Below, piece after piece: positions 1,170 to 63,572 of a stretch of DNA of 64,000 nucleotides. Each line of letters starts with the position of its first letter. The stretch's first letter is position 1. Origin of the DNA: Mycolicibacterium arabiense (GTDB taxonomy: Bacteria > Actinomycetota > Actinomycetes > Mycobacteriales > Mycobacteriaceae); NCBI RefSeq assembly GCF_010731815.2, contig NZ_AP022593.1, forward strand, positions 4,402,001 through 4,466,000. The letters run 5' to 3'. A model generated the notes under the pieces. The model was not told where the DNA came from, searched no databases, and saw only the letters and a list, made by a program, of their open reading frames with translations. Both the position numbers and the translations under genes were made by a program.

Positions 1170-2774
1170 ATGGCCGCATCTTCGATGCCTGCGCCACATC
1201 GGCGGACCCGCCGCGCAGGAGTCACCGCACTCGCGGTGGCCGGCGCCTGCCTCGTCGCCAGTGGGTGCACGGTCGCGAACTCCGGATCCGGCGGCTTCGA
1301 CACCAACACGTTGCGCATCGTCCTGTCCCAGGAACCGCCGACGCTGGAACCCTGCGAGAGCTCGCTGACCTCCACCGGCATCGTGGTCCGGTCGAACATC
1401 ACCGAGCCCCTCATCGAGCGCAACCCCACCAGTGGCGACCTGGAGCCCCTGCTCTCGACCGGATGGCGTCAGACCTCGCCGACGGAGTGGACGTTCGACG
1501 TCCGCAGCGGCGTCACCTTCTCCGACGGCAAGCCGTTCAGCGCCAAGGACGCCGCCTACTCGATCGATCGCGCCGTCAACTCCGACTTGGGTTGCAACGT
1601 CGATGGATACGTCTTCGGCGACGAGAAGCTGAAGATCGCCACCCCCGACGACGCGACGCTGACCGTCGCCACCGAGCAGCCCGATCCGATTCTCCCGCTG
1701 CGCATCTCGTTCGTCGAGATGGTGCCCGTCGGCACCAGCATGACCGAGAAGGTGCGCGAGCCGATCGGCACCGGGCCGTACGCGATCGCGGACTGGGAGT
1801 ACGGGCAGAAGCTGATCCTGGCCCGCAACGACGCCTACTGGGGTCCAAAGCCGGCGTTCCCCCGCGCCGAATACCAGTGGCGCAGTGAGGGCAGCGTACG
1901 CGCGGCCATGATCACCAATGACGAGGCCGACATCGCCACCTCGCTCGGCCCGGAGGACGGCGCGGGCGACCGCGGCGTCCCGTTCCAGAACAACGAGACC
2001 ACCGCGCTTCGCATGCAGGCCACCGAGGCCCCGCTCGACGACATGCGGGTTCGCCAGGCCATCAACTACGCGGTGAACCGCACCGGCATCGTGAAGGCGC
2101 TGTTCCGCGGCCTCGGCGATCCTGCCTCACAACTGATTCCGTCCGGCGTCGTCGGATACAACGACCAACTGCAGCTGTGGCCGCACGACGCGGACAAGGC
2201 CAAGGAACTCGTCGCCGACGCGAAGGCCGACGGCGTGCCCGTCGACCGTCAGATCCGCCTCATCGCCCGCACCGCGCAGTTCCCGAAGATCGCCGAGACC
2301 GTCGAGGTGCTGCAGAGCGAGTTCACCGACATCGGGCTCAACGTCAAGATCGAGATGATGGACACCGCCAGCCAGCTGCAGTACCAGCTGCGGCCGTTCC
2401 CTGCGAACACCGGCCCGTACCTCCTGATGATCATGCACGGCAACCAGGCCGGCGACGCCGCCTTCACGATGGACCAGTACATGCTCAGCGATGGGCCGCA
2501 GAGTGCCTACGGCACAACGGAGTTCGACGCCAAGATTCGCGCCGCGGAAGCCCTCACCGGCCAGGCCCGCCAAGACGCCTTCGCGAAGCTGTTCGCCGAG
2601 GAACCCCAGGAGATCATGCAGATGGCCTACATCGCCCACATGAAGGGCATCCTCGGCAAGTCCCCGCGCGTCGACTACACCCCGAACTCCGCCACCGGTG
2701 ACGAGATGCGGCTGTCCGAGATGACCGTGTCCGCCGATGGCACCGGCGACCCGGTCGATCCCGCTGTCTCCTGA
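1170..2774 (+). CDS. Peptide-type ABC transporter substrate-binding lipoprotein (SBP_bac_5 family)
   Basis: Extracytoplasmic solute receptor of a Dpp/Opp-type importer, 534 residues, normal for the family. The ATG at 1170 is chosen because GGAGG (1160-1164) lies 5 bases upstream. It yields a basic N-terminus, a hydrophobic stretch and the lipobox VASGC with Cys33 as the lipidated residue. The mature part shows the family layout, including TLEP, an SDGKPFSAKDAAYSI segment and a GTGPY segment. First gene of an operon with two permeases and two ATPases. Family members bind peptides, but also opines, sugars or metal complexes. The nearby glucarate dehydratase suggests an acidic ligand, which is inference only. 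Confidence 0.93.
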   Translation: MAASSMPAPHRRTRRAGVTALAVAGACLVASGCTVANSGSGGFDTNTLRIVLSQEPPTLEPCESSLTSTGIVVRSNITEPLIERNPTSGDLEPLLSTGWRQTSPTEWTFDVRSGVTFSDGKPFSAKDAAYSIDRAVNSDLGCNVDGYVFGDEKLKIATPDDATLTVATEQPDPILPLRISFVEMVPVGTSMTEKVREPIGTGPYAIADWEYGQKLILARNDAYWGPKPAFPRAEYQWRSEGSVRAAMITNDEADIATSLGPEDGAGDRGVPFQNNETTALRMQATEAPLDDMRVRQAINYAVNRTGIVKALFRGLGDPASQLIPSGVVGYNDQLQLWPHDADKAKELVADAKADGVPVDRQIRLIARTAQFPKIAETVEVLQSEFTDIGLNVKIEMMDTASQLQYQLRPFPANTGPYLLMIMHGNQAGDAAFTMDQYMLSDGPQSAYGTTEFDAKIRAAEALTGQARQDAFAKLFAEEPQEIMQMAYIAHMKGILGKSPRVDYTPNSATGDEMRLSEMTVSADGTGDPVDPAVS

Positions 2775-2812
2775 GCCACTGCCGACCAACTCCACGACCA
2801 GGAGATCAGCCC

Positions 2813-3742
2813 ATGTTCTCGTTCGTCCGGCGCCGGATGTACACCAGCGCACTGCCCCTCATCATCGTGTTGCTCGGCGTGTTCCTGCTCGCCCGCCTCA
2901 CCGGTGACCCGACCAACCTCTACCTGCCCGAGTCGGCCACCGCCGATCAGCGTGCCGAGTTCGCCGCCAAGAACGGCTTCGACCAGCCGATGCTGACCCA
3001 GCTGGTCGACTACTTCAAGGGCGTCCTGCACCTCGACTTCGGCACGTCGCTGCGCACCGGGGAGTCGGCGTCGTCGATGGCGTTCCGCGCCTTCCCGGCC
3101 ACCCTGCAACTCGCGTTCGCGACGATGCTGCTCGCGATCGTCGGTGCCGTGATCATCGGCTGTTGGGCCGCCTACCGACCCAACTCGCTGGCCGACCGCT
3201 TCTCCAGCCTGCTGTCGATGACGGCGGCGAGCATCCCGGACTTCTGGTTCGCCATCACCGGCGTCTGGCTCTTCGCGGTGCTCATGGGCTGGCTGCCCAC
3301 CTCCGGCACCGACGCGGGCGTGCTGTCGTGGATCCTGCCGATCGCCACGCTGATGATCCGACCGCTCGGCGTCCTCACGCAGGTGGTCAGGGGCGCGATG
3401 GTATCGGCACTGTCGGCGCCCTACGTACGGCTCGCCCGGAGCAAGGGCGCCAGCGACTTCCGCGTCGTCACCCACCACGCGCTGCGCAACGCCGCAGCCC
3501 CCGCGCTCACCGTCGCAGGCGATCTCGCCGTCGGCCTCATCAACGGCGCGGTGGTGGTCGAGGCGATCTTCGGCTGGCCCGGTATCGGCAAGCTCATGAT
3601 CGACGCAATCCTGCAGCGCGACTTCGCGGTGCTCCAAGCCGCGGTCCTGCTGACCGCGGTGAGCATCTTCGTCCTCAACATCGCCATCGACGCCTGCTAC
3701 GCGCTGCTCGACGCACGCGTGCGGGAACCGGCCAAGGTCTAA
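2813..3742 (+). CDS. ABC transporter permease, DppB type
   Basis: Inner-membrane permease of the peptide/nickel importer family, 309 residues. It has an N-terminal membrane segment followed by an external loop and five further hydrophobic segments. The EAA-type cytoplasmic loop that docks onto the ATPase lies near residues 200-230 (YVRLARSKGAS), and the closing FGWPGIGKL motif is typical of DppB. It follows the binding protein by 38 bases, with GGAGA upstream of the ATG. Pairs with the next gene to form the translocation pore. Confidence 0.93.
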   Translation: MFSFVRRRMYTSALPLIIVLLGVFLLARLTGDPTNLYLPESATADQRAEFAAKNGFDQPMLTQLVDYFKGVLHLDFGTSLRTGESASSMAFRAFPATLQLAFATMLLAIVGAVIIGCWAAYRPNSLADRFSSLLSMTAASIPDFWFAITGVWLFAVLMGWLPTSGTDAGVLSWILPIATLMIRPLGVLTQVVRGAMVSALSAPYVRLARSKGASDFRVVTHHALRNAAAPALTVAGDLAVGLINGAVVVEAIFGWPGIGKLMIDAILQRDFAVLQAAVLLTAVSIFVLNIAIDACYALLDARVREPAKV

Positions 3743-3754
3743 GGGAGCAGCGCC

Positions 3755-4741
3755 ATGAGCACTCAACTCGATCTCGTACCAGTCAAGCCCACCACCGCGA
3801 TCGTCGGCGAATCCGGAGCCAAGCGACGGAAGTCGGGCTCGAGCTGGTACCGCCTGCTGGTCAACGACCGGGTCGCCGCGGCCGCCGCCGTGGTGCTCGG
3901 GCTGGTGTTCTTGACCGCGATCTTCGGCCCGATGCTGATGGGCGGGCTCGCCACCGACATCGACCTGGACAACTCCAATCAGGCGCCGTTCACGCTCGCC
4001 AACGGCTGGGCGAACATCCTCGGCACCGACCCGCTGGGGCGCAGCATGCTCGCCCGGCTCGTCGTCGCCTGTCGGACCACGCTCTCGGTCGCGATTCCCG
4101 CTGTGGTGATCTCCGCGATCGTGGGCTCGATCGTCGGGATGTGGGCCGGCTTCTACCGCGGTTGGCGCGAGACGGTCGCCATGCGGATCGCAGACGTCAT
4201 CATGAGCTTCCCGTCACTGCTGCTGGCCGTGGTGGTGCTGTACGTCTTCTCGCCGAGTGCCGCCAACATCGTTGCGGTCCTGGCGATCACGCGCATCCCG
4301 GTCTACCTGCGCACCGCCCGCGCCGAGTCGGCCGAGCTGTCGAGCCGCGTGTTCGTCGACGCCGCCCGCACGTTCGGGGCCAGCGGACGCTCGATCATCA
4401 CGCGCCACGTCGTGCCGATCGTGCTGCCGACGCTGCTCACCGTGGCGACGCTGGACTTCTGCTACGTCATGCTCGCCGAGTCCTCGCTGAGCTTTCTCGG
4501 CATCGGCATCCAGCCGCCCGACGTCAGCTGGGGCCTGATGGTCGCCCAGGGCCGCACCTACCTGCACACCGCCTGGTGGCTGTCGTTCTTCCCGGGTCTG
4601 GCCATCGTCATCACCACGGTGTCGGCGACCATCCTCGCCGCCTGGGCGCGGATCGCGACCGACCCGGGTCAGCGGTGGCGCCTGACCGTCCCGCAGAAAC
4701 GCCTGTCCCGCTTCGCCAAGACCGGAAAGCGCCTGTCGTGA
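3755..4741 (+). CDS. ABC transporter permease, DppC type
   Basis: Second permease of the importer, 328 residues. A charged N-terminus precedes the first membrane segment (about residues 40-65), followed by the OppC-type external loop containing GTDPLGRSMLARL. The EAA-type loop is around VFVDAARTFGAS, and the C-terminal SSLSFLGIGIQPPDVSWG motif is diagnostic for the DppC/OppC family. It starts 12 bases after dppB with AGGGAGCAG in front. The C-terminus is basic and cytoplasmic. Confidence 0.93.
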   Translation: MSTQLDLVPVKPTTAIVGESGAKRRKSGSSWYRLLVNDRVAAAAAVVLGLVFLTAIFGPMLMGGLATDIDLDNSNQAPFTLANGWANILGTDPLGRSMLARLVVACRTTLSVAIPAVVISAIVGSIVGMWAGFYRGWRETVAMRIADVIMSFPSLLLAVVVLYVFSPSAANIVAVLAITRIPVYLRTARAESAELSSRVFVDAARTFGASGRSIITRHVVPIVLPTLLTVATLDFCYVMLAESSLSFLGIGIQPPDVSWGLMVAQGRTYLHTAWWLSFFPGLAIVITTVSATILAAWARIATDPGQRWRLTVPQKRLSRFAKTGKRLS

Positions 4742-4764
4742 AAGCGCCTCTCGAAGGGAATGTC

Positions 4765-5799
4765 ATGACCGCCCAGGTAGCCGAGCACCCGCCCGCCGAC
4801 CACACCGAAGCAGACCCCGCGCTGCGGGTCGACGGCCTCACGGTCGACATCCGCACCATCGCGGGCAGCGTGCGCGCCGTCGACCACGTGTCGTTCTCGG
4901 CGCACCGCGGCGAAACGCTGGCCCTGCTCGGGGAATCCGGCTGCGGCAAGTCGATGACCGCGACCGCCCTCGTCGGGCTGCTCGAACCCGTCGCCGAGGT
5001 GACCGACGGCTCCGCCGAACTCGCAGGCCGCAACGGCACCGCCGATCTGCTGGCCGTCGACCGCAAGACGCGGCGGCAGATGGCGGGCACGGAGCTGGCC
5101 ATCGTCTTCCAGGACGCGCTCACCGCACTCAACCCGCTCTACACCGTCGGCACCCAGCTGGCCGAGCCGTTCCGCATCCACCACGGGATGAATGCGAAGG
5201 ACGCCAAGGGCAAGGCCGTGGAACTCATGACGCGCGTTGGCATCCCGCAGCCGGAGGAGCGTCTCAAGAGCTACCCGCACCAGTTCTCCGGCGGCATGCG
5301 GCAGCGCCTGCTGATCGCCATGGCGGTCGCGCTGAACCCCCGCGTCCTGATCGCCGACGAACCGACCACCGCCCTCGACGTCACCGTGCAGGCCCAGATC
5401 ATGGCACTGCTGAAGAGCCTGCGCTCTGAATACGACATGGCCGTCGTACTCATCACCCACGACCTTGCGCTGGTGGCCGAGGAAGCCGATCGCGTCGCGG
5501 TGATGTACGCAGGCAACGTCATCGAGACCGGACGGGTCGCCGAGGTGTTCGCCGAACCAAAGCACCCGTACACCAAGGGCCTGCTGAACTCCGTGCCCAT
5601 CAACGCCGAGCGGGGCGCGCACCTCAAGTCGATCGGCGGGTCGCCGCCGGACCTGAACTCCATCCCGAAGGGGTGCGTGTACCAGGAGCGGTGCCCGCTC
5701 GCCGCCGAGATCTGCCGCACCACGCGGCCCGCACTGGCGCCCGTCGGCGCCGGACGGCGGTCGGCGTGCCACTTCCCCGAGGAGGTCACCAATGTCTGA
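4765..5799 (+). CDS. ABC transporter ATP-binding protein, DppD type
   Basis: Cytoplasmic ATPase powering the importer, 344 residues. Walker A is GESGCGKS (about 56-63), the Q-loop is in IVFQDALTALNP, the signature is FSGGMRQR, Walker B is VLIADEP and the switch is ITHD. The C-terminal Oligo_HPY extension carries a CVYQERCPLAAEIC cysteine cluster as in DppD/OppD. The ATG at 4765 is preceded by GAAGGGA. The reading frame stays open far upstream across the permease genes, but that part is out-of-frame translation. Its last 8 bases overlap the next ATPase, indicating translational coupling. Confidence 0.92.
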   Translation: MTAQVAEHPPADHTEADPALRVDGLTVDIRTIAGSVRAVDHVSFSAHRGETLALLGESGCGKSMTATALVGLLEPVAEVTDGSAELAGRNGTADLLAVDRKTRRQMAGTELAIVFQDALTALNPLYTVGTQLAEPFRIHHGMNAKDAKGKAVELMTRVGIPQPEERLKSYPHQFSGGMRQRLLIAMAVALNPRVLIADEPTTALDVTVQAQIMALLKSLRSEYDMAVVLITHDLALVAEEADRVAVMYAGNVIETGRVAEVFAEPKHPYTKGLLNSVPINAERGAHLKSIGGSPPDLNSIPKGCVYQERCPLAAEICRTTRPALAPVGAGRRSACHFPEEVTNV

Positions 5800-53202: not shown

Positions 53203-53919
53203 TTACCTCTCTCCGCGAGCGTGCGTGTCTGCGGGCGACACGCCGCGCTGAAACCCGAGTTCGCGCACGGTCGCCGTCGCGTTGAGGTCGATGCGATGCT
53301 CCGCAGCTCGGATCAGGTCGTGGTCGTGGGTGGCCGCGACGACGGTCGTGCCCTCGGCGGCCATGCGTCGAAGGTGTACGACCACGTGGGCTGCCGAGTC
53401 GGCATCGAGCCCGGTCGTGGGCTCGTCGAGGAGCAGCAGCCCTGCCTCCTGGACGAATGCCTGTGCGAGCAGGACGCGTTGGCGTTGACCGCCGGAGAGT
53501 TCGCCCATGGTGCGCCTGCGCAGATCGTCCAGTCCGAGTTCGGCCATCCAATGGTCGACGACGCCGTGGTCGGTGCGGCTGGGACGCCGAAGTAGGCCGA
53601 GGCGACTCCAGCGGCCCATCATCACCACCTCGGCGGCCGTCATCGGGAAGGCGTCGGTGACCGCACTGCGCTGAACTGCCAGGGCGGTGTCACCCCACGG
53701 GGCTCGGACATCGCCCCCGTGTGGGCGCAGTACACCCGCGAGAAGTCCCAGCAGCGTTGACTTTCCCGATCCGTTCGAGCCGACGACCGCGGTGACGGCG
53801 CCGGGCGTCACCGACAGGTTGAGCCCACGGAAGACCTCCGCCCCGGGGTAGCCAAAGCGGACGTTGGTCAGCTCGATCGACGTCGAGCCGAGTGGCGATT
53901 TATTGAAAATGAGTTTCAT
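53203..53919 (-). CDS. aztA: Zinc ABC transporter ATP-binding protein (AztA-like)
   Basis: ATPase of a zinc importer, 238 residues. Walker A GSNGSGKST, signature LSGGQRQR, Walker B LLLLDEPTTGLD and switch His in ATHDHDL are all present. ATG 53919 overlaps the Zur-like palindrome at 53904-53918. The permease gene starts 11 bases away on the opposite strand, so one operator can silence both. A longer frame open to 54186 is antisense to the permease and is not used. Its 3' end is convergent with rlmB. Confidence 0.88.
   Translation of the reverse strand: MKLIFNKSPLGSTSIELTNVRFGYPGAEVFRGLNLSVTPGAVTAVVGSNGSGKSTLLGLLAGVLRPHGGDVRAPWGDTALAVQRSAVTDAFPMTAAEVVMMGRWSRLGLLRRPSRTDHGVVDHWMAELGLDDLRRRTMGELSGGQRQRVLLAQAFVQEAGLLLLDEPTTGLDADSAAHVVVHLRRMAAEGTTVVAATHDHDLIRAAEHRIDLNATATVRELGFQRGVSPADTHARGER
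53904..53918. promoter_or_regulatory. Zur-like operator between aztA and the permease
   Basis: TGAAAATGAGTTTCA at 53904-53918 is an imperfect palindrome close to the actinobacterial Zur consensus TGAAAATGATTTTCA (one base off). It overlaps the aztA start codon and lies 12 bases before the permease start. Zinc-dependent repression of both transcripts is inferred. Confidence 0.65.
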
Positions 53920-53930
53920 TACTGCTAAGA

Positions 53931-55928
53931 GTGTACATCGTGACTCACTGGCTGCTGGCGCCCTTCGAAGCCGACATCGTGGCGCGTGCCCTAGCGGCGG
54001 GTGTATTGGCTGCGTGCCTGTGCGCGTTGGTCGGATGCTGGGTCGTGCTGCGGGGCAGCGTGTTCCTCGGCGAAGCCATGTCGCACGGCATGCTGCCGGG
54101 GGTAGCAATCGCGGCGCTGCTGGGTGGCAGCCTGATGGTCGGCGGGATGATCGCGGCGCTCGCGATGGCACTTGGCATCGCGGCAATCGGCCGATCGTCG
54201 AAACTCGCCTCCGACACCAGCATTGGGCTCCTGCTGGTCGGCATGCTCGCGCTCGGGGTGATCATCGTGTCCCGATCACAGAGCTTCGCGGTGGACCTGA
54301 CCGGTTTTCTCTTCGGCGACGTGCTGGGGGTTCGGAGCGTCGACCTCGCCATCCTCGCCGCCGCGCTGACGTTCACCCTTGCGGCAACGGTCGTCGGGCA
54401 TCGCGCCTTCGTCGCGGTGACGTTCGACCCGCGCAAGGCCGCCACCCTCGGCCTGCGGCCTCAGCTCGCGGCAGTCGCGCTCACGGTCCTGATGGCGGTC
54501 GCCATGGTCGCCACCTTCCACGTGGTGGGGACGCTGCTGGTCCTCGGCCTCTTGGTCGCCCCACCTGCCACGGCGCTGACGTGGGCCCGGTCGATTCCCC
54601 GCGTCATGGCGTTGGCTGCAGTGTTCGGTTCGGCAGCAACGTATCTGGGGCTGCTGATCTCTTGGCACGCCGGAACTGCGGGCGGAGCGACGATCGCGGG
54701 TGTCGCCGTGCTGATCTTCTTCCTCTCCACCGCCGCCCACCTGCTGCGCGGCCGGTGGAGGCAGGTCTCCACCGCGACGGCGGTCGCGTGTCTGGCGGCC
54801 GGCTGCTCGAACGGCGCCGAACCGGCTGTGCCGCCGGCGACCTCGGTCGGTGCGGGGGACCAGGTGGTCATCGAGGGCGCCCGCGAACTGGACGGGGCGC
54901 TCACCAAACTCGTCTTGGTCGACCCGCGTACGGGTGACACGGCCGTCTACGACGCGGTGGACGAGACCGAGACGCGAGTCGACTCAGCAGGACCCGTGAC
55001 GTCGATCGCCGGTGACGGCCGCTTCGCCTACCTCGGCACGGACGATCAGACCTTGATCGTCGATGCCGGTGCGTGGACCTTCGATCACGGCGACCACTAC
55101 CACTACTTCGCCACCGAACCCGCCCTCGTCGGCACGCTGGACGTGCCAGTCACGTCGGTCAGTGCCAGCAATTCGGTCACGGCGGTAGCGGGCGGGAACG
55201 ACGTCCGGCTGCTCGACCGCGAACGGCTCGGCGCCAAGGAGGTCGAGCCACCATCCGGACTCGACGTGGGCGACGACGTCACCGCGGTGGTGCCGTACGG
55301 CAAGCGGCTCGTGACGGTGACCGACGCGGGCATCGTTCGAGCGGTCGACGACGGCGGGTCGACCGACCTCGTCGGCACGTGTCCCAGCCCGTCGTGGTCC
55401 GAGCCGACCCGGCGGGCGGTCGTATTCGGTTGCGCCACCGGCGCGATTCGGGTGACCGGTGGTGACGGCGACCTGACGGTGACCGACATGCCCTTCCCTG
55501 CCGATGCGCCCGCGCAGCGGCCGCTGAAGATGGATCATCGCGACCGCGCCGACGTCTTCGCCGGCGTGTCCGAGGGCACCGTCTGGGTGCTCGACAGCCG
55601 ACTGCGCAGGTGGACGGTGATTCCGGTTCCAGATGCGTTGACTGCCAACACCTCCGGTGACGGCATGGTCCTCGTCCTGCACCGCGACGGCACGCTCAGC
55701 GGCATCGACGTGAGCACGCGGACCGAGACGGCGCGCGTCCCGCTGTTCCCCGGTGGCGTTCCGGCCGACGGCCCGCAGCCGGTCATCGAGATCGACTCCG
55801 ACAGGGCGTACGTCAACGACGCAGCGGCCCGCCAGGTCTACGAGATCGACTACGCCGACGGGCTGCGGTTGGCGCGGACGCTGCGCACCGAGGTATCGCC
55901 GGGCCTGATGGCCGAGGCCGGCCGATGA
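53931..55928 (+). CDS. aztB: Zinc ABC permease (AztB-like) fused to a lipoprotein-like His-motif domain
   Basis: 665 residues in one frame. Residues 1-278 are a ZnuB/TroC-type permease with eight to nine hydrophobic segments (LRGSVFLGEAMSHGMLPGVAIA and VVGTLLVLGLLVAPPATAL). A cytoplasmic basic end (LLRGRWRQ) is followed by a short hydrophobic run and the lipobox-like LAAGC with Cys292. The rest (about 300-665) is a beta-propeller-like secreted domain with the His motif DHGDHYHYF at 385-393 and a terminal repeat resembling the end of the separate aztD product. No ATG or GTG in frame begins the second part. LspA cleavage into permease and lipoprotein is a hypothesis. Confidence 0.85.
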   Translation: MYIVTHWLLAPFEADIVARALAAGVLAACLCALVGCWVVLRGSVFLGEAMSHGMLPGVAIAALLGGSLMVGGMIAALAMALGIAAIGRSSKLASDTSIGLLLVGMLALGVIIVSRSQSFAVDLTGFLFGDVLGVRSVDLAILAAALTFTLAATVVGHRAFVAVTFDPRKAATLGLRPQLAAVALTVLMAVAMVATFHVVGTLLVLGLLVAPPATALTWARSIPRVMALAAVFGSAATYLGLLISWHAGTAGGATIAGVAVLIFFLSTAAHLLRGRWRQVSTATAVACLAAGCSNGAEPAVPPATSVGAGDQVVIEGARELDGALTKLVLVDPRTGDTAVYDAVDETETRVDSAGPVTSIAGDGRFAYLGTDDQTLIVDAGAWTFDHGDHYHYFATEPALVGTLDVPVTSVSASNSVTAVAGGNDVRLLDRERLGAKEVEPPSGLDVGDDVTAVVPYGKRLVTVTDAGIVRAVDDGGSTDLVGTCPSPSWSEPTRRAVVFGCATGAIRVTGGDGDLTVTDMPFPADAPAQRPLKMDHRDRADVFAGVSEGTVWVLDSRLRRWTVIPVPDALTANTSGDGMVLVLHRDGTLSGIDVSTRTETARVPLFPGGVPADGPQPVIEIDSDRAYVNDAAARQVYEIDYADGLRLARTLRTEVSPGLMAEAGR

Positions 55929-56836
55929 GGCGATGGACCCTCGTCTGGGCGACGGCCCTGATCGCTGCGTTGGTCACCGCCTGCAGCGGCTCCTCCGGGC
56001 AGCAGAACGGAGAGATCGTCGTGACCACGAACATCCTCGGAGACGTCGTCCGCAACGTCGTGGGTGATGCGGCCGAAGTGCGAGTACTGATGCAGCCCAA
56101 CGCAGATCCGCATTCCTTCGGCGTGTCGGCGCAGGACGCGGTCGCCATGTCCAGCGCAGGCCTGATCGTCTACAACGGCCTGGGGCTCGAGGAGAACGTG
56201 ATCCGCAACGTCGAAGGCGTTGCCGAAGAGGGCGTGCCCACGTTGGCAGTCGGTGACCACGTCGACCCCATCCGGTACGCCGAGGGCGAGAGTTCCGGCG
56301 CACCCGATCCGCACTTCTGGCATGACCCCGAGCGGATGATCGCTGCCGTCGACGTGATCGAGAAGGCGATCGTCCGGGACGTCGGGGGCATCGACGCTGC
56401 GGCGGTGTCGCGCAACGCTGAGGACTACCGGGCGGAGCTGCGGGACCTCGACGCCACGATGGCCGAGGAGTTCCGCACCATTCCCGTCGAGCGCCGCAAG
56501 CTGGTGACCAACCACCACGTGCTCGGGTACTTCGCACAGCGGTTCGGCTTCACCGTCATCGGCGCCGTCGTGCCGAGCGGCACGACGCTGGCGGCGCCGA
56601 GCGCCTCGGACCTCGACTCACTCGTTGGGGCGATCGAAACAGCCCGGGTGCCTGCGATATTCGTCGACTCGTCGCAGCCCGAACGCCTGGCCCGAGTGCT
56701 CGCCGAGGACGCCGACGTCGACGTGCGGATCGTTCAGTTGCACAGCGAGTCGCTGAGCCCGCCCGGTACCCGCGCGGCCACGTACCTCGACATGATGCGC
56801 GCCAATGCCGACGCCATCGTCACCGGCCTGCGATAG
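55925..56836 (+). CDS. aztC: Zinc ABC transporter substrate-binding lipoprotein (AztC-like)
   Basis: Cluster A-I metal receptor, 303 residues. The signal peptide ends in VTAC with Cys20 lipidated. Expected zinc ligands are His63 in ADPHSFG, His130 in PDPHFWHD, His197 or 198 in TNHHVLGYF and Asp248 in FVDSSQPE. It has no long His-rich loop, unlike ZnuA, which is the AztC pattern that relies on a separate chaperone. ATGA overlap with the permease gene and 36 bases before aztD. Confidence 0.92.
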   Translation: MRRWTLVWATALIAALVTACSGSSGQQNGEIVVTTNILGDVVRNVVGDAAEVRVLMQPNADPHSFGVSAQDAVAMSSAGLIVYNGLGLEENVIRNVEGVAEEGVPTLAVGDHVDPIRYAEGESSGAPDPHFWHDPERMIAAVDVIEKAIVRDVGGIDAAAVSRNAEDYRAELRDLDATMAEEFRTIPVERRKLVTNHHVLGYFAQRFGFTVIGAVVPSGTTLAAPSASDLDSLVGAIETARVPAIFVDSSQPERLARVLAEDADVDVRIVQLHSESLSPPGTRAATYLDMMRANADAIVTGLR

Positions 56837-56872: not shown

Positions 56873-58063
56873 ATGACGAGATCGCGCTGGCTGTATCGCG
56901 CTGGAGCACTGTCCTGCACGATCATGGCCTTGATGGCGTGCTCGAGTGGCAGCAACGAGAACGCCGAGAGCACGACGACGTCGGCGGAGCCTCAAACGGC
57001 GCCCATCCCGGAGCCATTGGTCGCCACCTACGACGGCGGCCTCTACGTGCTCGACGGCGAAACCCTCGAAGTGCGGCAGGACATCCCACTCGACGGCTTC
57101 CTGCGCCTCAACCCGGCCGGCGACGAGTCCCACGTCCTGGTCACCACCACCGACGGGTTCCGCATCCTCGACGCCGCCGGAGGCGAGTTGACCGACGACA
57201 CGTTCCCCGCAGCCGAAGCGGGACACGTCGTCGTGCACGGTGAGAACACGGTGCTGTTCGCCGACGGCTCGGGTGAGATCACCGCATTCGATCCGCACGC
57301 GCTGGCCGACGGCATGCCGGAGACGCAGAAGTTCACCACGCCGCAGGCCCACCACGGAGTGGCCGTCATCCTGGCCGACGGAACGCTGGTGCACAGCATC
57401 GGTGATCCCGAGAACCGCACCGGGGCGGTCGCGATGCAGGGCGACCGTGAGATCGCCCGCAGCGAGGAATGCCCCGGCATCCATGGCGAGTCGGTCGCTG
57501 CCGACGAGGTCGTGATCCTCGGCTGCGAGAACGGGGTCCTGAAGTACGCCAACGGCAAGTTCACCAAGATCTCCAGCCCGACTCCATACGGACGGATCGG
57601 CAATACCCGGGGACACCAGGACTCGCCCGTCGTGCTCGGTGACATGAAGGTCGACGCCGACGCGGAAATGGAGCGACCGCAACAGTTCTCCCTGATCGAC
57701 ACCACCACGGACCAGCTCAAGCTGGTTCGGATGCCGCCGTCGGTGAGCTACTGGTTCCGCTCGCTCGGCCGCGGTCCCCAGGGTGAGGCGCTGATGCTCG
57801 GCACCGATGGCCAGCTGCACGTCTTCGACCCGGTCAGCGGTGACCTGGTGAAGTCCATCCCGGTGATCCAGCCGTGGACCGAGCCCGACGACTGGCAGCA
57901 GCCGGGACCCGCCGTCTTCACGCGCGAGCAGTCCGTGTACGTCAGCGATCCCGCGGCGAAGCAGATCCACGTGGTCGACCTGCAATCGGGGCAGATCACC
58001 AACTCCGCGACGCTCGAGCAGACCCCCAACGAACTCAGTGGCGCCGTGGGTCACGAGCACTGA
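56873..58063 (+). CDS. aztD: AztD-like extracytoplasmic zinc chaperone lipoprotein
   Basis: 396 residues. A signal peptide ends in a lipobox (LMAC, Cys about 23). The mature protein is beta-propeller-like, with repeats such as VATYDGGLYVLDGETLE, FADGSGEITAFDP and TREQSVYVSDPAAKQIHVVDLQ. His clusters in QAHHGVAV and IHGES and a terminal GHEH may bind zinc. AztD proteins hand zinc to AztC. It lacks the DHGDH-type motif, which here is found in the permease-fused domain. Its GAGAGAG ribosome binding site lies upstream. The gene is convergent with arsB. Confidence 0.85.
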   Translation: MTRSRWLYRAGALSCTIMALMACSSGSNENAESTTTSAEPQTAPIPEPLVATYDGGLYVLDGETLEVRQDIPLDGFLRLNPAGDESHVLVTTTDGFRILDAAGGELTDDTFPAAEAGHVVVHGENTVLFADGSGEITAFDPHALADGMPETQKFTTPQAHHGVAVILADGTLVHSIGDPENRTGAVAMQGDREIARSEECPGIHGESVAADEVVILGCENGVLKYANGKFTKISSPTPYGRIGNTRGHQDSPVVLGDMKVDADAEMERPQQFSLIDTTTDQLKLVRMPPSVSYWFRSLGRGPQGEALMLGTDGQLHVFDPVSGDLVKSIPVIQPWTEPDDWQQPGPAVFTREQSVYVSDPAAKQIHVVDLQSGQITNSATLEQTPNELSGAVGHEH

Positions 58064-62582: not shown

Positions 62583-63572
62583 ATGATCGTCTCGCGCCGT
62601 CTCGCCGCCGCCTTGCTCGTGGTGCCGTTCGTACTGACGTCCTGCTCCAACAGTGGTGACGACTCGGCGTCCTCGTCCTCGTCCGCGCCGACCGACGCCG
62701 CGCCGTGCCCCGTCGCGCCCGTCGACGTGGTCGTCAGCGTCGATCAGTGGGGCGACGTGGTCACCGAACTCGGGGGTGCGTGCGCGAACGTCACCACGCT
62801 CCTGGCCAGCTCGTCGGTCGACCCACACGACTACGAACCCTCGCCCGCCGACGCGGCGAAGTTCGAGGGCGCCCGCCTCGTCGTGGTCAACGGGGGTCAT
62901 TACGACGAGTGGGCGGGCAAGCTCGCGGCCGGTTCGGCACCCGACGCGCCCGTCGTCGATGCCGTCCGGATCAGCGAGGGGGAGGCAGGCCACGACGAAG
63001 CCGCCCACGAGGCCGGGCACGAGGGTCACGAGGACGGTGCGGCCAACCCACACGTCTGGTACAGCCCGACCGCCGTCAGCGGAGTCGCCGACGCCGTGAC
63101 CGCCGAGCTGTCCGAGATCGCCCCGGACGCCGCGGACTACTTCGCCGAGCGGCGCAGCGCGTTCGCGACGTCGCTGCAGCCCTACGACGACGCCATCGCC
63201 GCGATCAAGAAGTCCGCGTCGGGCAAGACCTACGCCGCGACCGAAGCGGTGTTCGACGAGATGGCCACTGCCGTCGGCCTGCAGAACAAGACCCCGGCCG
63301 GCTACCAGACCGCGTCCAACAACGAGGCCGACCCGTCGCCTGCGGACCTCGACGCCTTCCTCACCCTCCTGCAGGACAAGGGTGTCGACGTGCTGATCTA
63401 CAACACCCAGACCGAGGGATCGGTGCCTGAGCAGATCCGTGCCGCGGCCGAGTCGGCGAGCGTCCCGGTCGTCGAAGTCACCGAAACGGTGGCGCCCGGC
63501 ACGGATTCGTTCGAGGCTTGGCAGGTGGCTCAACTCACCTCCCTTGTCGAGGCGCTCGGTGTCTCCGTCTGA
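62583..63572 (+). CDS. znuA: Zinc ABC transporter substrate-binding lipoprotein (ZnuA-like)
   Basis: 329 residues. The signal peptide ends in LTSC with Cys21. A Ser-rich linker precedes the cluster A-I fold. Metal ligands expected: His82 in VDPHDYEP and His157 in ANPHVWYS. The third His is replaced (TEAVFDEM, Glu221) and the closing Asp region reads YNTQTEG, an actinobacterial variant. A His-rich loop (about 134-157) contains several His and Asp. The Zur-like box overlaps its promoter. It overlaps the ATPase gene by 14 bases. Confidence 0.92.
   Translation: MIVSRRLAAALLVVPFVLTSCSNSGDDSASSSSSAPTDAAPCPVAPVDVVVSVDQWGDVVTELGGACANVTTLLASSSVDPHDYEPSPADAAKFEGARLVVVNGGHYDEWAGKLAAGSAPDAPVVDAVRISEGEAGHDEAAHEAGHEGHEDGAANPHVWYSPTAVSGVADAVTAELSEIAPDAADYFAERRSAFATSLQPYDDAIAAIKKSASGKTYAATEAVFDEMATAVGLQNKTPAGYQTASNNEADPSPADLDAFLTLLQDKGVDVLIYNTQTEGSVPEQIRAAAESASVPVVEVTETVAPGTDSFEAWQVAQLTSLVEALGVSV

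Follow-up and report, generated by a model that had tools for sequence, protein, structure and literature searches.

The window analysed here, a stretch of 64,000 nucleotides from the Mycolicibacterium arabiense genome (6.45 Mb in 2 contigs), holds a locus in which the models for AztA, AztB, AztC and AztD all score above their curated cut-offs. The ATPase gene aztA (53203..53919; NF040873, 232.7 bits, cut-off 220) lies on the minus strand, with its ATG start at 53919 predicted from the sequence. Divergent from it, on the plus strand, are a fused gene (53931..55928, from a GTG at 53931 or 53940 to the TGA at 55928) that joins aztB to a second coding region, for which we coined the name aztE in this analysis; aztC (55925..56836; NF040870, 377.3 bits, cut-off 350), which encodes the substrate-binding lipoprotein and shares 4 bases with the end of the fused gene; and aztD (56873..58063; NF038015, 446.7 bits, cut-off 400), which encodes a further lipoprotein. 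The permease domain spans residues 7-259 (53949..54707, plus strand; NF040871, 336.8 bits, cut-off 280) and has a Pfam ABC-3 match at residues 15-268. The initial annotation of this DNA had called it a ZnuB-type permease. The ABC-3 match bears out the metal permease, but not the type, as the ZnuB model (NF007089) reaches only 81.7 bits against a cut-off of 284 and the AztB model passes instead. By these profile scores, the permease is the AztB of the known AztABCD zinc importer. Elsewhere in the window (62583-63572) lies the gene of another binding lipoprotein of the zinc type, which has a His-rich loop, and a second ABC-3 permease lies just beyond the window end (L002), pointing to a ZnuABC-like system close by.

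As initially described, one frame joins permease, lipobox and later domain, running through 665 codons from GTG to TGA with zero internal stops. A start at GTG 53940 (MTHW) is rated equal to one at GTG 53931, because three related loci (L088, L091 and L095) show an ATG at the matching place. Among 198 genomes sampled from the genus, AztB scored above its cut-off in 22, and the same in-frame fusion is present in 19 of these 22 AztB loci, the window counted. This conservation rules out an assembly error or a chance open frame, and it contradicts the frameshift error that had been raised as a possible undoing of the fusion. As to the exceptions in the genus, AztB and the second domain lie in differing frames in L022 and L023, with the unfused genes overlapping in L023, and the frame is broken near the AztB end in L004. 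The longer version of the latter locus (L089, genome G153) has its break near position 2262, which could be genuine or a sequencing error.

The search for this architecture in other actinobacteria, suggested with the initial annotation, extends the fusion to Nocardia, Lentzea and Saccharothrix in addition to Mycobacterium/Mycolicibacterium, among the fused loci that could be named. Separate aztE genes occur in the listed loci of Streptomyces, Glycomyces, Prauserella and Kribbella, and beyond the genus AztE is mostly encoded by a standalone gene between aztB and aztC. An AztE homologue adjoins aztB in 79 of the 80 actinobacterial loci over the cut-off among the matches listed (L003-L024 and L030-L087), L078 being the one without. 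The best named match to the AztE part of the window comes from Mycolicibacterium lacusdiani, at 88% identity. A tree built from 133 distinct AztE rows, of which 58 are fused, 69 are separate and 6 have no AztB in the stretch, requires at least five changes of the label fused or separate, with gains and losses indistinguishable. A triple fusion was also seen: in L093 (genome G095), positions 1465-4389 form a single 975-codon open frame for AztB, AztE and AztC, with AztD as the next gene. Our search of the open-access literature found no title or abstract opening that describes an AztB fusion or a fifth Azt protein, which is weak evidence of absence because subscription papers lie largely outside that search.

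The AztE domain, at about residues 316-665 (54876..55925, plus strand), is a divergent AztD-type beta-propeller and a paralogue of AztD, as judged from sequence comparison and the predicted structure. AlphaFold2 (AF2), run as the structure prediction proposed earlier as a check, yields a confident propeller, almost wholly made of strands, with block mean pLDDT of 75-96 save in the last two blocks; the HGDH turn joins strands 381-385 and 390-394. In a Foldseek search against the PDB, ranks 1-9 are all AztD chains from Citrobacter and Paracoccus (E 3e-17 to 6e-15; TM-score by target 0.65-0.67). At the sequence level, the window AztE matches the AztD profile NF038015 weakly (23.9 bits over residues 495-646, below the cut-off of 400), and other AztE members match nearly the entire profile, the best seen reaching 153.6 bits (genome G343). 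Identity between AztE and AztD is 18-24%. With the fused protein as phmmer query, the PDB sequences gave three permeases and no AztD at E up to 0.1, so that the link to AztD becomes visible through profile, alignment and fold search. Cys484 and Cys501 (55380..55433, plus strand), kept in 38/38 fusions, are the counterpart of an AztD Cys pair that forms a disulfide (PMC6689063). The domain had at first been taken for a secreted, lipoprotein-like His-motif domain; an exported metal-binding domain is indeed the type that emerges, but its kinship with AztD, evident from the nine best Foldseek matches, and the surrounding Azt system had been overlooked. Separate AztE proteins on Streptomyces plasmids are annotated as hypothetical in RefSeq records. 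A phage record (MT836139.1, 14932-15906) also gives a weak AztE match (23% identity, E 3e-6), perhaps through general propeller likeness.

In Paracoccus, AztD has two zinc sites (PMC6689063). Site 1 lies in the pore and consists of His124, His167 and His218, and site 2 consists of His99, His102 and Asp104 on the blade-2 hairpin together with the C-terminal His408. Transfer of zinc to AztC takes place from site 2 alone (PMC6689063). The motif DHGDHYHYF of the window protein, found at residues 385-393 as first stated, aligns with site 2, where HGDHYH (residues 386-391; 55086..55103, plus strand) agrees with the pattern HGxHx(D/H). A His takes the position of Paracoccus Asp104, and the C-terminus of AztE is GR, so that the C-terminal His ligand is absent. 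None of the three site-1 pore His is present in the window AztE. The AztD encoded downstream (56873-58063) has all three site-1 His, in AGHV, AHHG and IHGE, and its site-2 hairpin is a gap in the alignment; this AztD thus lacks exactly the zinc site that AztE keeps, a point missed in the initial annotation. The two zinc sites of AztD therefore appear, from the alignments, to be divided between AztE (site 2) and AztD (site 1), which is the new point of this study, and both proteins would bind zinc here.

This division was counted in 61 loci found through AztB, including the window (long regions for 60), with AztE present in 59 and AztD in 59. AztE keeps site 2 in 59/59 and is without any site-1 His in 57/59, with one such His in L140 and all three in L114. 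Among 60 AztD open reading frames (ORFs) at these loci, site 2 is present in 0/60 and all three site-1 His in 58/60, the remaining two being halves of a single broken gene (L139). The AztD proteins without AztE in the stretch, gathered as AztD-profile matches with about 4 kb on each side where the contig allows, show site 2 in 48/53 and both sites complete in 46/53. Eight AztD proteins from plasmid records outside AztE loci have site 2 in 8/8, with three site-1 positions in five and two in three (Thermus, Deinococcus and Neorhizobium). The reverse arrangement, AztE without AztD in the stretch, was found in none of 206 loci. Because of the kinship among the rows, the Fisher test value for the split (p 1.3e-26) is not to be read as a probability, and what the counts establish is that the division is stable, not that it arose many times independently. 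A further 80 loci (L243-L322) were found through the AztE motif, and the main count therefore omits their AztE motif counts. Site 2 is present in 0/80 of the AztD rows from these loci, some of which share genomes with other loci in the count. Three rows shorter than 200 aa (L244_D, L308_E and L318_E) were excluded.

By motif pattern, seven AztD proteins outside AztE loci are without site 2 (L198, L202, L209, L213, L228, L239 and L240); the alignment count, used instead, leaves five of 53 (L198, L202, L209, L239 and L240). The genomes of L198, L202 and L239 hold another, two-site AztD (L233, L236 and L196, respectively), that of L209 also carries AztE (L091), and at 255 aa the L240 frame is short. 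The extra AztD of L209 (genome G142, 3799-5041) flanks aztA on its other side; this genome carries the fused locus as well. Several other arrangements were observed. At most of the loci L187-L240, from many actinobacterial genomes, a two-site AztD stands by itself, no gene for an Azt transporter having been detected in the surrounding 4 kb or so. In a Salipiger plasmid (L155, 2882-5460), a lone AztD lies next to zigA, a zinc GTPase chaperone gene. In M. houstonense, M. porcinum, M. setense and Mycobacterium sp. URHD0025 (L259, L260, L262 and L267), AztE and AztD are adjacent, and neither AztB nor AztC has a match in the stretch; in L259 and L262 the pair is followed by a CobW-type gene and a ZnuA-like gene. 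Such a pair may serve another zinc importer.

Between permease and propeller lies a putative internal lipoprotein signal (54738..54806, plus strand), made up of a basic stretch, a hydrophobic run and the lipobox-like LAAGC with Cys292, which is confirmed as first proposed (Cys codon 54804-54806). In an alignment of the window with 37 of 38 references (L320 omitted), Gly291 and Cys292 are the sole invariant positions between residues 264 and 315, being kept in 38/38 fusions. This alignment is the independent check, since the broader junction survey chose the Cys by lipobox pattern and its (G/A)C is therefore partly built-in. In that survey, from which the spurious Streptomyces rows L308 and L318 were left out, the net charge ahead of the hydrophobic run is at least +2 in 58/58 distinct junctions. 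The -3 residue of the window lipobox is Ala, which departs from the strict form with Leu, Val or Ile at that position. In lipoprotein maturation, Lgt lipidates the lipobox Cys and LspA cleaves the signal. Basic stretches next to membrane helices are cytoplasmic by the positive-inside rule, so the RGRWR stretch would be cytoplasmic and the propeller outside, whether cut or tethered. The invariant lipobox inside the fusion suggests, as the simplest reading, that the lipoprotein signal still works within the precursor, and Cys292 lipidation or LspA cleavage is thus likely. The initial proposal of a permease, a lipobox and an exported metal-binding domain, either tethered or cut by LspA, fares well as to this architecture, in view of the conserved Gly-Cys and the basic stretch.

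The same linker bears on whether AztE is made as a separate protein, initiated within the long frame, so that the fusion is only apparent. An in-frame start 14-28 codons before the Cys is found in 15/29 mycobacterial and 24/29 other distinct fusions, and unfused genes within the genus overlap (L023). But no single internal start position is conserved among the fusions, and no ATG, GTG or TTG lies 14-28 codons before the Cys in 14/29 distinct mycobacterial fusions, the window among them. In the window itself no in-frame ATG, GTG or TTG occurs from the 32nd codon before the Cys, within the last permease helix, to Cys292. An internal start, which the initial annotation had named as evidence that would tell against a fused protein, is thus contradicted on sequence evidence by the window and 13/28 other mycobacterial fusions. 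We consider separate initiation very improbable, although it is less firmly excluded outside mycobacteria because 24/29 of the other fusions carry an in-frame linker start.

The main rival to cleavage is an uncut tether, with the hydrophobic run forming an extra membrane helix and AztE staying covalently on AztB, where it would dock AztC. Some ABC permeases carry fused substrate-binding domains. The occurrence of the fusion in several lineages, with the at least five label changes on the AztE tree, agrees with such a tether, as does the helix that AF2 draws through the linker stretch. The membrane parts are, however, poor in both AF2 models, where the signal continues the last permease segment as a single long helix; this helix gives no support to a cut signal peptide, and a model of this quality neither confirms nor excludes cleavage. 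Against a plain anchor, which needs no Cys, stands the invariance of Gly-Cys in 38/38 fusions while the nearby linker varies, although a lipidated but uncut form is compatible with it. Overall we regard the uncut tether as rather unlikely.

Our preferred explanation is that the locus encodes a five-part Azt zinc importer (divergent aztA, fused aztB and aztE, aztC and aztD) in which the AztD sites are split and AztE is exported as the tail of an AztB precursor; we give this explanation as a whole a probability of about 0.65. The last permease helix, followed by the basic stretch and the lipoprotein signal, would place the propeller outside the membrane, where AztE would most likely be lipidated at Cys292 and freed by LspA, or else tethered, beside the permease. 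Its HGDHxH hairpin would play the part of site 2 in Paracoccus AztD and deliver zinc to AztC, and AztD would keep a reserve of zinc at site 1 or give it to AztE. The fusion and its conservation, the kinship with AztD, the site split and the conserved lipobox can all be read from the sequences; the direction of zinc transfer and the relay would follow from Paracoccus biochemistry by analogy. A more specific version, with polyprotein-like maturation in which LspA leaves a lipid-anchored site-2 chaperone at the permease mouth and zinc is relayed from AztD to AztE, AztC and then AztB, is tentative, and we would put it somewhat short of an even chance. Counting against the preferred explanation are the low profile score of the window AztE (23.9 bits against 400), the missing C-terminal His and the lone site-1 His of L140. 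Instead of a zinc donor, AztE could be a decayed AztD or serve as a scaffold or sensor, given its divergent sequence and the loss of that C-terminal ligand of site 2. Decay would not, however, spare the transfer site, and site 2 is present at all 59 AztB-found loci with AztE; moreover, the three site-2 His are invariant in 15/15 and 38/38 aligned rows, as are the Gly and the Cys pair, both sets being partly motif-gathered. A non-donor AztE therefore seems improbable to us.

Zur control of the locus is suggested by a candidate Zur-box-like inverted repeat, TGAAAATGAGTTTCA (53904..53918, no strand assigned), located between aztA and aztB and containing the predicted aztA start. A strict box pattern is enriched at aztB upstreams, being found in 47/128 distinct ones as compared with 2/705 random windows from the same loci. 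In M. smegmatis, the zinc-transport cluster MSMEG_6045-6071 responds to zinc starvation (PMC7174638). The window locus may be under Zur control.

As to the origin of the split, we built a tree by quick search from 26 AztE, 26 AztD, 27 other actinobacterial AztD and 7 outside references, with the zinc-site columns masked. AztE forms one clade (SH-aLRT 99), whose deepest row is L114, with both sites present; this row sits on a long branch and its placement is uncertain. AztD rows from AztE loci do not form one clade, and starred branches force at least two label changes. Outside the class, L328 and L330 have a single two-site AztD between aztB and aztC; no further aztD match was found in the L330 stretch covered, and the L328 contig ends directly after aztC. 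This suggests that a two-site AztD formerly occupied the position of AztE. AztE would then descend from a two-site AztD-type chaperone and retain site 2 alone, and the downstream AztD would retain site 1 alone. DNA repeats between the AztE part and aztD were uninformative, with the direct families listed (20 of 33) all at most 28 bases long.

If this interpretation is true, the two sites of AztD are physically separated in nature, and the role of site 1, which the AztD structure paper leaves open even though the site is conserved (PMC6689063), could be read from AztD alone. The actinobacterial loci would provide natural one-site proteins with which to measure storage and transfer independently. 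In the fusion, a lipoprotein signal may be working inside a multi-pass protein and pairing chaperone and permease one to one, and a likely role can be offered for a family named hypothetical in RefSeq records. Of the findings on this locus, the site split is the larger one.

The closest known system is AztABCD of Paracoccus denitrificans (PMC6689063, PMC7463823), whose ATPase, permease, binding protein and chaperone belong to the same families and whose chaperone has the same propeller fold. The locus described here differs in having a fifth component, AztE, fused to AztB, and in having its zinc sites spread over two paralogues. The initial annotation, which knew of no characterised zinc importer of such design, missed that AztABCD has been characterised in Paracoccus (PMC6689063). 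The azt operon of a Klebsiella plasmid has four genes and one two-site AztD, unlike the window locus. Compared with the AztD structures (PDB 6ck1, 6cmk and 6n01), AztE has the same fold, Cys pair and site 2 but no site 1, and the window AztD has the same Cys pair and site 1 but no site-2 hairpin. A zinc chaperone domain joined to an importer component is also seen in streptococcal AdcA, where a ZinT-type domain is fused to a ZnuA-like binding protein (PMC6689063). The partner there is the binding protein, whereas in the window it is the permease. The fold of the AdcA ZinT-type domain is unrelated to the AztE propeller. Finally, C. glutamicum cg0040-cg0043, named as secreted protein, binding protein, permease and ATPase (PMC2823685), are probably azt genes, and an AztB match above the cut-off is present in our C. 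glutamicum control genome. The passages of that report covered here describe no fusion, unlike in the window; what the two loci share is the divergent arrangement of ATPase and permease genes with a box between them, a candidate one in the window, the cg0042/cg0043 promoter being bound by Zur in C. glutamicum (PMC2823685).
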